Of a stretch of 64,000 bases of DNA, positions 29,635 to 33,145 are shown piece by piece. Under the pieces are notes generated by a model. That model saw only the letters and a list, made by a program, of their open reading frames with translations, did not search any database and had not been told where the DNA came from. Source of the DNA: Brevundimonas basaltis (GTDB lineage: Bacteria > Pseudomonadota > Alphaproteobacteria > Caulobacterales > Caulobacteraceae); contig NZ_JACHFZ010000001.1 in the NCBI RefSeq assembly GCF_014202075.1, forward strand, positions 620,001-684,000, given 5' to 3'. Made by a program: the position numbers and the translations under genes. Each line of letters begins with the position of its first letter. Position 1 is the first letter of the stretch.

Positions 29635-30093
29635 ATGGCTGAACACCCCGAAATCTGGTTCTACCACCTCGAACGTTCGACGCTCGATCAGGTGTTGCCG
29701 GGCCTGCTCGAGAAGACGCGCGAGCGAGGCTGGCGGGCGCTGGTCCGCGCCGCCGACCAGCGGCGGCTGGACGATCTCGACGAGCGGCTCTGGACCTATC
29801 GCGACGACAGTTTTCTGGCCCATGGCCGCGCCTCGGAGCCGGAAGCGGCGCGGCAACCCATCCTTCTGACGCAGTCCGCCGAGAACCCGAACGGCGCTCA
29901 GGCGCTGTTCATCCTGGACGACGCAGAGCTTGGCGATACGAAAGGGTTCGATCGATGCTTCATCATCTTCGACGGTCGGGACGACACCGCGGTGGCTGCG
30001 GCCCGGGTGCGCTGGAAGACGTTGAAGGACGGCGGCGCCAATCTCGCCTACTGGAAGCAGTCGCCCGAGGGACGCTGGGAAAAGGCGGCCTGA
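29635..30093 (+). CDS. holC: DNA polymerase III chi subunit
   Basis: 152 residues beginning MAEHPEIWFYHLERSTLDQV, with the LPGLLEKTRERGWRALVRA and DDSFLAHG segments that characterise HolC. HolC bridges the clamp loader to SSB. In related genomes holC commonly neighbours pepA; here pepA is 1.4 kb away on the opposite strand with four small lipoprotein genes between. The last codons overlap the first of those ORFs. Confidence 0.92.
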   Translation: MAEHPEIWFYHLERSTLDQVLPGLLEKTRERGWRALVRAADQRRLDDLDERLWTYRDDSFLAHGRASEPEAARQPILLTQSAENPNGAQALFILDDAELGDTKGFDRCFIIFDGRDDTAVAAARVRWKTLKDGGANLAYWKQSPEGRWEKAA

Positions 30094-30404
30094 TCGCGCT
30101 CGCCGCGCTCGCGGCCTGTTCGACCCCGGCGTCTGACGCGCCTGCGCCCCGGACGGTGGAGCGGGCCCAGATGAGCCAGCCGATCGGCGCTCCGGTGGTC
30201 AGCCCCACCGCCGACCTGTGCAAGGCCGGCGAGCTGCAGTGGCTGGTGGGGAAACCGAAGACCGAGATCCCCGTTCCCGTTGACGTGGTCAACCGCAGGG
30301 TGACCTGCACCACCTGTCCGGTGACCGAGGAGTTCTCGCCCCACCGCCTGAACATCTTCTTCAACGACCAGACGGACATCGTCGAACAGGTTCGCTGCGG
30401 CTGA
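30075..30404 (+). CDS. I78-inhibitor-like lipoprotein, copy 1 of 4 (non-ATG start likely)
   Basis: About 109 residues from a CTG at 30075; the lipobox is in LIALAALAACS. No ATG, GTG or TTG lies between an ATG at 29955 (inside holC, giving a non-protein-like extension) and the lipobox, so initiation at CTG by coupling to holC, or use of an internal ATG at 30171 without a signal, are the options. The mature part is I78-like: DLCKAGELQWLVGKPK, then RRVTCTTCPVTEEF, HRLNIFF and a final CG. I78 inhibitors block serine proteases. The C-T-T-C is an addition to the family pattern. Confidence 0.7.
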   Translation: MGKGGLIALAALAACSTPASDAPAPRTVERAQMSQPIGAPVVSPTADLCKAGELQWLVGKPKTEIPVPVDVVNRRVTCTTCPVTEEFSPHRLNIFFNDQTDIVEQVRCG

Positions 30405-30422
30405 AGCCAAGGGAGACGCCCC

Positions 30423-30716
30423 ATGAAGATTCATCTGCCCAGCCTCGCCGCCGCCGGCCTGCTGATCGCAGCCTGCGCCCCGGTCGAGCCGGGCCCCGCG
30501 CCGACGCCCCCCGGGGACAGCCCGTCCCAGTGTCGCGCCGACCACTATCAACGCTATATCGGCCGCAACCGGTCCGAACTCCCGGCCCGGCCCGCCGGAG
30601 AGGTCTGGCGCGTGACCTGCACCACCTGCCCGGTGACCATGGATTACAACCCCGCCCGCCTGAACATTCTCTACGACCAGTCCAGCGGCGTGATCCGGGA
30701 GGTCAAATGCGGATGA
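30423..30716 (+). CDS. I78-inhibitor-like lipoprotein, copy 2 of 4
   Basis: 97 residues. MKIHLPSLAAAGLLIAACAP is a lipoprotein signal with lipobox IAAC. The domain reads QCRADHYQRYIGRNRSELP, WRVTCTTCPVTMDYNP, RLNILYDQSSGVIREVKCG: the I78 framework (first Cys, (L/V)G, V-T-x-D/E-Y, RLN, CG) with a C-T-T-C inserted at the reactive-loop position. It should be tethered to a membrane facing the periplasm. Starts 18 bases after copy 1 with GGGAGA upstream. The target protease is unknown. Confidence 0.85.
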   Translation: MKIHLPSLAAAGLLIAACAPVEPGPAPTPPGDSPSQCRADHYQRYIGRNRSELPARPAGEVWRVTCTTCPVTMDYNPARLNILYDQSSGVIREVKCG

Positions 30717-30985
30717 GAACCCTTGTCCTGACGGCGGGCGCGCTCGTCCTGGCGTCCTGCGCCCCGATGCCGGAGAGCGCGGGCGACCCGATCCCCCAGC
30801 GCTGCGACGCCGGGGCCAACCAGTCCCTGATCGGATCGCACGTCGGCGCCGTCAGCTTCCCGGCCGACGCCAATGTCCGCGTGGTCTGCACCACCTGCCC
30901 CACCACCAAGGACCTGCGCCCGGACCGGCTCAACGTTCGCTTTGACCAGGACACGGGCATCATCCGGAGGGTGGATTGCGGCTGA
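30707..30985 (+). CDS. I78-inhibitor-like lipoprotein, copy 3 of 4
   Basis: 92 residues; the ATG at 30707 has GGAGG five bases upstream and overlaps the end of copy 2 (a second ATG at 30713 forms an ATGA overlap). MRMRTLVLTAGALVLASCAP is the lipoprotein signal. The domain contains RCDAGANQSLIGSHVG, RVVCTTCPTTKDLRPDRLN and a final RRVDCG. Like copies 1 and 2 it keeps C-T-T-C before the V/T-T motif, while the loop sequence around it differs, as expected for inhibitors with diverging specificity. Confidence 0.85.
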   Translation: MRMRTLVLTAGALVLASCAPMPESAGDPIPQRCDAGANQSLIGSHVGAVSFPADANVRVVCTTCPTTKDLRPDRLNVRFDQDTGIIRRVDCG

Positions 30986-31305
30986 TCGTCCTGACCCTCG
31001 GGGCCGCGGCGACGCTGGCCGCCTGCACCGAACCGGCGCCCCCGTCCGCGCCGACTGAGCCCCGTCCATCCCCTCCGGCCAGACCGGAGGCGCCGCCCAC
31101 CCCGGTTCCGGCCGATGGGTGTGGGGCGGCCGAACGTCAGGACTGGGTCGGTCGCGCACGCTCGGACCTGCCGGCCCCTCCGTCGCGGGCGAATTGGCGG
31201 ATCTACGAAACCGGTCAGCCGGTGACCCAGGACCTGCGGCCCGATCGGCTCAACATCGAAATCGATCCGGACAGCCAGACCGTCGTCCGCCTCGGCTGCG
31301 GCTGA
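30976..31305 (+). CDS. I78-inhibitor-like lipoprotein, copy 4 of 4 (lacks C-T-T-C)
   Basis: 109 residues from a TTG at 30976 overlapping copy 3 by ten bases, with GGAGGG upstream. MRLIVLTLGAAATLAACTEP is the lipoprotein signal, followed by a long Pro-rich linker (about 18-48). The domain is the canonical form: GCGAAERQDWVGRARSDLP, NWRIYETGQPVTQDLRPDRL, NIEIDP and a final CG. Where copies 1-3 have C-T-T-C it has ETGQ, so this is probably the ancestral-type loop. Confidence 0.85.
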   Translation: MRLIVLTLGAAATLAACTEPAPPSAPTEPRPSPPARPEAPPTPVPADGCGAAERQDWVGRARSDLPAPPSRANWRIYETGQPVTQDLRPDRLNIEIDPDSQTVVRLGCG

Positions 31306-31536: not shown

Positions 31537-33012
31537 TCAGCTCTCGTAGCTATCGGCCACCATGCGATCGAGGGTGCGGACGCCCCAGCCAACAGGGCCG
31601 TCGGGCACGGTCGGGTTCTTGCTGTCCTTGACCCAGGCCGTCGGCGCGATGTCGATGTGGGCCCACGGGACGCCGTTGGTGAACCGCTGCAGGAACAGGG
31701 CGGCGGTGATCGAGCCGCCGGCGCGGCCGTTTCCGGTGTTCTTCACATCGGCGATCGGGCTGTCGATGTGACGCTCGTAAGCCTCCGGGATCGGCATCCG
31801 CCAGGCGTTCTCGCCGACCTTGGGCGCGGCGGCGAGGAAGTTGTTCGCCAACTCGTCCGAGTTCGAGAAAACACCCGCATATTCAAGGCCAAGGGCGACA
31901 ATCATGGCCCCGGTCAGCGTCGCCAGGTCGAGCATGAATTTCGGCTTGAACCGCTCCTGGGTGTACCAGAGGCAGTCGGCGAGGACGAGGCGGCCCTCGG
32001 CATCGGTGTTCAGGATTTCGACCGACTGGCCCGACAACGACATGACCACGTCGCCGGGGCGCTGGGCGTTCCCATCCGGCATATTCTCGACCAGGCCGAT
32101 GACACCGATGGCGTTGACCTTCGCCTTGCGACCCGCGAGGGCGTGCATCAAGCCCGAGACAGCGGCCGCGCCGCCCATGTCCCACTTCATCTCCTCCATG
32201 CCGTCCGACGGCTTGATTGAGATGCCGCCGGTGTCGAAGGTCACGCCCTTGCCGACGAAGGCAATCGGCTGGTCGCCCTTGTTGCCGCCGTTCCACTTCA
32301 TGATGGCGACCTGGCTCTCGCGGCGGCTGCCCTGCCCCACCCCGAGCAAGGTGCGGAAGCCGAGCTTCTCCAGCTCCTTCTCGCCGAGCACCTCGACCTC
32401 GAGGCCGATCTTTTCCAACGCCTTGACGCGTTTGGCGAACTCGACCGGATACAGGACGTTGGCCGGCTCGGCGACGAGATCACGCGAAAATTCAACGGCC
32501 GCGGCGACGGGCGAGAGCTTGCCCCAGGCGGCCTGGGCTGCCTTCACGTCGCCGGCGACGATCTTGATGGTCTCGATCGACGGGGTCTTCTCGGGCTTCA
32601 GCGTGGTGCGGTACTTGAGGAACCGGTAGGCGGCCAGGCGGGCGCCGAAGGCGGCGCGCGCGGCCTGATCGGCGGACAGGGAGCCGGCGTCGATGGTCAG
32701 CGTCTTCGCGCCCGAGAGCTTGACGGCCTGATAGGCGGCGCCGGCAGCCGTCTCCATCGCCAGATCGTCGAACTTGCCTGGATCGCCCGCGCCGGTAAGC
32801 ACCACCGTGTCGGCGTCGATCCCGCTTGGGGCCGCAACGACGAGGGTGCTGTTCGCGCCACCCGTGAAGCGGCCGGCGGTCATGGCCCGGGTTAGGGCGC
32901 CCGAGGCGGCCGTATCATGTTCGGCGCCCTTGCCCTGGAAGGCGCGGCCTTCGTGAACCAGTACCGCCAGCACCTCGGCTCCGCTGGCGTTCGCGACGAA
33001 CTCGATCTTCAT
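31537..33012 (-). CDS. pepA: Leucyl aminopeptidase PepA
   Basis: 491 residues from the ATG at 33012 (AGGAG eight bases upstream). The M17 metal site is visible: GKGVTFDTGGISIKPSDGM with the Lys and Asp ligands, and NTDAEGRLVLADCLWY with Asp, Glu and the catalytic Arg. The N-terminal half is the macro-like domain that in E. coli also binds DNA. It removes N-terminal amino acids in the cytoplasm. Divergent from lptF, the arrangement seen in many proteobacteria. Confidence 0.96.
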   Translation of the reverse strand: MKIEFVANASGAEVLAVLVHEGRAFQGKGAEHDTAASGALTRAMTAGRFTGGANSTLVVAAPSGIDADTVVLTGAGDPGKFDDLAMETAAGAAYQAVKLSGAKTLTIDAGSLSADQAARAAFGARLAAYRFLKYRTTLKPEKTPSIETIKIVAGDVKAAQAAWGKLSPVAAAVEFSRDLVAEPANVLYPVEFAKRVKALEKIGLEVEVLGEKELEKLGFRTLLGVGQGSRRESQVAIMKWNGGNKGDQPIAFVGKGVTFDTGGISIKPSDGMEEMKWDMGGAAAVSGLMHALAGRKAKVNAIGVIGLVENMPDGNAQRPGDVVMSLSGQSVEILNTDAEGRLVLADCLWYTQERFKPKFMLDLATLTGAMIVALGLEYAGVFSNSDELANNFLAAAPKVGENAWRMPIPEAYERHIDSPIADVKNTGNGRAGGSITAALFLQRFTNGVPWAHIDIAPTAWVKDSKNPTVPDGPVGWGVRTLDRMVADSYES

Positions 33013-33145
33013 GAGGCTACTCCTGCCGGGATGGAACGCCCCGGTCGTACTTGCAGTGACGCACGCGGGCGACTGTCGCCGGTGCGTGGGGATGTGTATT
33101 AGAGGCGTTCCCGCCGCCGCCTGCAACGGGCGATTTTCTCCGCTT

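Follow-up and report, generated by a model that had tools for sequence, protein, structure and literature searches.

Four tandem I78-like lipoprotein genes in Brevundimonas basaltis, three with a conserved C-x-x-C beside the presumed reactive loop

Introduction

Four consecutive small genes in a 64,000-nucleotide stretch of the Brevundimonas basaltis genome (the window) raise the question of whether they encode a set of I78-family protease inhibitors, and of what an additional pair of cysteines close to the presumed reactive loop does in three of them. Bacterial I78 proteins are common in Pseudomonadota and seem essentially unstudied. The original prediction knew of no description of such a set, and a search of the open literature (subscription journals lay outside it) likewise found none, either of a C-x-x-C at positions P8–P5 or of a tandem bacterial set with Glu, Met, Lys/Arg and Gln at P1. 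The family and the fold are already known; the conserved C-x-x-C variant is real and apparently undescribed.

Organisation of the locus

The four genes lie in tandem on the plus strand (30075–31305), between holC and pepA, and each encodes a small lipoprotein with an I78 / potato-inhibitor-I domain (Table 1). Their packing is operon-like: the start of copy 1 overlaps the end of holC, 18 bases separate copy 1 from copy 2, the start of copy 3 sits in the stop of copy 2 (an ATGA overlap), and copies 3 and 4 overlap by 10 bases, placing the TTG start of copy 4 inside the end of copy 3. Promoter and terminator scans found none.

No ATG, GTG or TTG lies close to the signal peptide of copy 1, whose likely start is the CTG at 30075–30077, within holC. 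Among 45 related Brevundimonas copy 1 genes the codon at this position is CTG in 40, TTG in three, GTG in one and ATG in one, so that a CUG start is probably conserved, with the caveat that the overlapping Trp codon of holC fixes the TG as well. The orthologues in Caulobacter and Phenylobacterium carry an ATG at the stop of holC (equivalent to 30090–30092 of the window).

Table 1. Coordinates of the array, its loop motifs and its neighbours, as positions in the window
Feature	Position	Strand	Description
holC (DNA polymerase III chi)	29635..30093	+	conserved neighbour, upstream of the first I78 gene
Copy 1	30075..30404	+	I78-like lipoprotein, 109 aa if CTG 30075 is the start; C-T-T-C; P1 Glu
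C-T-T-C of copy 1 (P8–P5)	30306..30317	+	P1 Glu codon 30327-30329
Copy 2	30423..30716	+	I78 lipoprotein, 97 aa; C-T-T-C; P1 Met
C-T-T-C of copy 2	30618..30629	+	P1 Met codon 30639-30641
Copy 3	30713..30985	+	I78-like lipoprotein, 90 aa; C-T-T-C; P1 Lys
C-T-T-C of copy 3	30887..30898	+	P1 Lys codon 30908-30910
Copy 4	30976..31305	+	I78 lipoprotein, 109 aa; TTG start; E-T-G-Q loop base; P1 Gln
E-T-G-Q of copy 4	31207-31218	+	same place as C-T-T-C
pepA (M17 leucyl aminopeptidase)	31537..33126	-	other conserved neighbour; downstream and convergent in the window

In each product a lipobox-like Cys is followed by a linker, which in most is rich in Pro and Ala, and by a domain of 60–61 residues. The lipobox-like sequences, judged by eye, are L-A-A-C, I-A-A-C, L-A-S-C and L-A-A-C in copies 1 to 4, and the Pfam lipobox model LPAM_1 matches copy 4 only, below its cut-off; secretion and lipid anchoring facing the envelope would apply to all four products. 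After the lipobox-like Cys they share the pattern of a domain Cys, G, (V/T)T x D/E, RLN and a final CG. The first and last domain cysteines occur in all four copies and in the relatives read. Copies 1–3 have five cysteines (the lipobox Cys and four others), and copy 4 has three (the lipobox Cys and two others).

Family membership and modelled fold

As originally predicted, the Pfam I78 model (PF11720, cut-off 23.6 bits) matches all four products, with copies 2 and 4 (25.5 and 25.4 bits) above the cut-off and copies 1 and 3 (21.7 and 16.2 bits) below it; copy 1 reaches 23.8 bits when its frame neighbours are included. Copies 1 and 3 are counted as I78 because they join through a close family-specific profile (A2), to which copy 3 scores 97.6 bits. 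Across the whole genome, matches to PF11720 are confined to this array. Against the potato inhibitor I model (PF00280; I13; cut-off 24.5 bits), copies 1, 2 and 4 stay below the threshold with scores of 13.3 to 14.0 bits, and copy 3 has no match: the four products have the same fold as potato inhibitor I and belong to a different family. A profile of the C-x-x-C copies recovered both AFUEI (I78) and eglin c by sequence from the solved structures, a collection in which phmmer with copy 2 alone gave no match; an NCBIfam search returned nothing useful.

AlphaFold2 models of copies 2 and 4 (mean pLDDT 91.4 from 59 alignment rows and 88.6 from 42) show a potato-inhibitor-I-like fold in which an exposed loop joins strand 1 to strand 2. 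Among the structure matches listed, almost all are potato-inhibitor-I or I78 proteins, many of them in complex with subtilisin or trypsin, and AFUEI and eglin c rank with the leading ones. Eglin c aligns over the whole domain with a Z of 7.5 (58 residues, rmsd 2.1; VIA-align) and AFUEI with a Z of 7.3 (64 residues; VIA-align), values of about 7 being middling on the tool's own scale; the Foldseek E-values are weak for this domain (65 residues), with none below 0.001.

In the model of copy 2, strand 1 (residues 30–34) finishes on C34; C37 falls within the loop, P1 is Met41, and residue 48 is the first of strand 2. The C-T-T-C thus sits at the presumed reactive loop, as first proposed, and not far from it. 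The models of copies 2 and 4 together with the alignment place the C-x-x-C at P8–P5, between strand 1 and the reactive loop. The residues aligned there are H-P-G-D in AFUEI and x-P-G-x in many other I78 domains. This turn, which is usual but not obligatory before the I78 reactive site, is absent from all four copies, and its absence marks a variant and is no bar to I78 membership. The presence of C-T-T-C ahead of the shared motif in copies 1–3 and the plain form of copy 4 were located exactly in the original prediction, and the same pattern recurs in orthologous arrays across the genus, which takes it beyond chance. What has to be corrected is the description of the C-T-T-C as extra or added: it is not an insertion, but four residues swapped for the x-P-G-x turn at equal length.

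P1 divergence and the proposed function

Primary specificity in potato inhibitor I proteins is set by the P1 residue, and Glu and Gln are unusual at P1 in this fold. Across Brevundimonas, copy 1 has Glu at P1 in 31 of 38 sequences and copy 2 has Met in 30 of 31; a basic residue (Arg or Lys) occupies the site in 25 of the 29 sequences of copy 3, and Gln in six of the nine of copy 4. The order 1, 2, 3, 4 is kept throughout the genus wherever the copies are present. Residues fixed within paralogue groups and different between them are consistent with the diverging specificity that had been proposed for the set. In buckwheat rBTI, for example, Arg45 at P1 fits trypsin (PMC3115953).

The four genes probably encode lipid-anchored inhibitors of the I78 fold, with a stapled loop in copies 1–3 and a P1 specificity that has been split between the copies. 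By the standard mechanism, the rigid convex loop would enter the active site of a serine protease in the manner of a substrate and be cleaved only very slowly. In copies 1–3, a short disulfide across P8–P5 would staple the non-primed foot of this loop, where an ordinary I78 protein has its P-G turn. Such a set would cover proteases cleaving on the C-terminal side of Glu, of hydrophobic or basic residues and perhaps of Gln. The targets could come from outside, or they could be exported proteases of the cell itself. Three subtilases (at least one of them exported-looking) and three trypsin-family matches are present in the genome. Two of the subtilase genes, L239 (G000:C4:247782-248600) and L240 (G000:C5:118466-119071), are candidates for the organism's own targets; one has a lipobox-like start, a poly-Pro linker and a long C-terminal part, and the other looks exported.

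Bacterial I78 lipoproteins appear never to have been assayed, the literature found mentioning the family only in passing, and together with the unusual Glu and Gln at P1 this lends some weight to a different reading, in which the fold is kept but protease inhibition has been lost, the diverged loops having taken on other ligands in the envelope or belonging to inert surface proteins. That reading is rather unlikely, since Thr at P2, an acidic residue at P1' and Arg at P6', the signature of the canonical loop, are retained in nearly all copies, and since P1 is fixed within each orthologous group and differs between groups, as divergence of inhibitor specificity predicts. P2 and P6' belong to the network that holds the loop in potato inhibitor I proteins (PMC3115953).

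The cysteine pair

Among 284 distinct I78 domains, both additional cysteines are present in 201 and neither in 83, with no domain containing a single one, the domains being related rather than independent and six trait changes sufficing on a weak tree. This all-or-none pairing, the exported appearance of the proteins and the DsbB gene in the genome point, at the level of sequence, to a structural disulfide. It is this half of the earlier "disulfide or metal-binding CxxC" that is supported, indirectly; the metal-binding half is not, there being only two free ligands.

C-x-x-C is also a motif of thiol-disulfide exchange. If the disulfide were a redox switch, reduction would loosen the loop, the inhibitor would be released or cleaved, and inhibition would follow the redox state of the envelope. 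An unrelated 12-mer subtilisin inhibitor behaves in a comparable way, in that it needs its loop disulfide and is cleaved as a substrate when reduced (PMC9623506). For the array such a switch is improbable: the residues between the two cysteines range widely (TT, TS, ST, SS, TE, HN, HD, AE, DV, FN and more, giving motifs as different as CTTC, CHDC, CAEC, CDVC and CFNC), unlike those of a tuned redox pair, and neither a redox partner nor regulation was seen, the synteny being with holC and pepA. Strict co-conservation is predicted equally by a plain structural disulfide, and the redox sensitivity proposed at first gains no support from it. The fully elaborated version, in which envelope inhibitors of different P1 specificity are each switched by the thiol state of their loop, is likewise improbable. 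A metal ion held by the C-x-x-C, whose two cysteines can ligate zinc or iron, is very improbable and was set aside, as two ligands are too few and neither His, Asp nor a third Cys is conserved next to them, the intervening positions vary freely, the canonical first and last cysteines are expected to be bonded to each other, and in proteins that look exported the C-x-x-C would be oxidised.

Distribution and evolution

The C-T-T-C-type motif is kept in orthologues, the C-x-x-C being usual in Caulobacter, Phenylobacterium and Brevundimonas, present in one further family of the order (f3) and rare elsewhere. In Caulobacter and Phenylobacterium the C-x-x-C gene behind holC is single, with Met at P1 as a rule (cultured Caulobacter vibrioides strains, L218 and L225, included as single-gene cases), and the number in Brevundimonas ranges from one to four. 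Within f3, C-x-x-C copies occur alongside plain ones. These f3 arrays (L102, L104, L108, L112-L114, L116, L125) parallel the Brevundimonas set: the C-x-x-C copies terminate in CG and the plain ones in CY or CF, and Gln is the usual P1 residue of the latter.

The sequences read from the remaining families of the order, and from other Pseudomonadota, are plain copies, and the tally of class and phylum sequences is 45 plain to one with C-x-x-C. A further family of the class (f5) has C-x-x-C forms in two genomes of one genus (G305, G1091), possibly of separate origin; the I78 genes L247 (G1091) and L248 (G305) read R-Y-V-C-x-x-C (CAGC, CSTC), and most genomes of that genus have none. A strict DNA pattern, R-x-x-C-x-x-C-x-[VTAI]-T ... 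R-[LIV]-N, matched no genus but that of the window in 385 class-level genomes, and no more than three genera, all Caulobacteraceae, in 398 phylum-level genomes. It underestimates the spread, since known cases escape it, G305 (L150) and G427 among them.

Of 80 named loci, a set gathered with a narrow profile (A3) and biased toward Met-P1 copies, 78 have holC next to the gene, and pepA usually precedes holC. In the window, as in L154, L160, L164, L167 and L168, pepA instead lies downstream in convergent orientation, whereas most of the remaining loci have it upstream of holC in the same direction, a difference that reflects rearrangement of the segment inside the genus. One Brevundimonas-like I78 gene lies outside this context in a Sphingosinicella genome (sp. 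YJ22, L180:3501-3683): its first half resembles copy 2, its second half (RLNIFFNEQTEIVEQVRCG) matches Brevundimonas copy 1, and neither holC nor pepA is nearby. This mosaic looks like the product of transfer together with recombination between paralogues.

The simplest reading is that one ancestral Met-P1 inhibitor was duplicated and retuned. The ancestral Caulobacteraceae gene would have been a single Met-P1 inhibitor behind holC, and tandem duplication in Brevundimonas would have been followed by divergence of the P1 "bait" to Glu in copy 1, Met in copy 2, Lys/Arg in copy 3 and Gln in copy 4. A poorly resolved gene tree (146 rows, 57 columns, the C-x-x-C columns excluded) groups copy 1 with the single Caulobacter/Phenylobacterium genes (SH-aLRT 82–85), which agrees weakly with this duplication and is compatible with copy 1 being their orthologue. 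The tree is compatible with either one origin or several for the C-x-x-C of Caulobacteraceae and f3.

Implications

The group offers a natural experiment: on one scaffold at a conserved locus, the two loop cysteines, and with them the predicted disulfide, are either both there or both missing, and the P1 residues of the four paralogues are fixed and differ from one another, the rare Glu included. It makes two questions testable, namely what envelope inhibitors protect against and whether a non-primed staple improves a canonical loop, and the loop may serve inhibitor design. The single gene of Caulobacter vibrioides places the variant in an organism with easy genetics.

Comparison with known systems

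AFUEI, the Aspergillus fumigatus elastase inhibitor (PDB 3w0d; MEROPS I78/PF11720), is the only characterised I78 protein met in the literature searched (PMC8954713). It is alike in fold, in the position of the reactive loop and in T-x-(D/E) ... RLN, and its first and last domain cysteines, Cys5 and Cys67, correspond to the pair found throughout the array (PMC8954713). It differs in the residues at P8–P5 and in being a secreted fungal protein, one not known in a tandem set with different P1 residues. The plain I78 proteins of other Pseudomonadota are likewise small, mostly have Met at P1 and are sometimes in tandem, but mostly have an x-P-G-x-like turn instead of the C-x-x-C.

Eglin c and CI-2 (I13) resemble the products over the whole domain and have the Arg at P6'; the eglin c loop reads P-V-T-(P1)-D, and changes at P1 set specificity. 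They have Arg or Trp at P8' where the array has Asn, are without the C-x-x-C and, to our knowledge, have no first/last Cys pair.

In two further systems a disulfide steadies the binding loop. The rigidity of the loop in a selected peptide inhibitor of subtilisin depends on its disulfide (PMC9623506). In buckwheat rBTI, a plant I13 protein, Cys4–Cys49 ties the primed side (P4') to the N-terminus (PMC3115953), whereas the two cysteines of the array are three residues apart and on the non-primed side, at P8 and P5.
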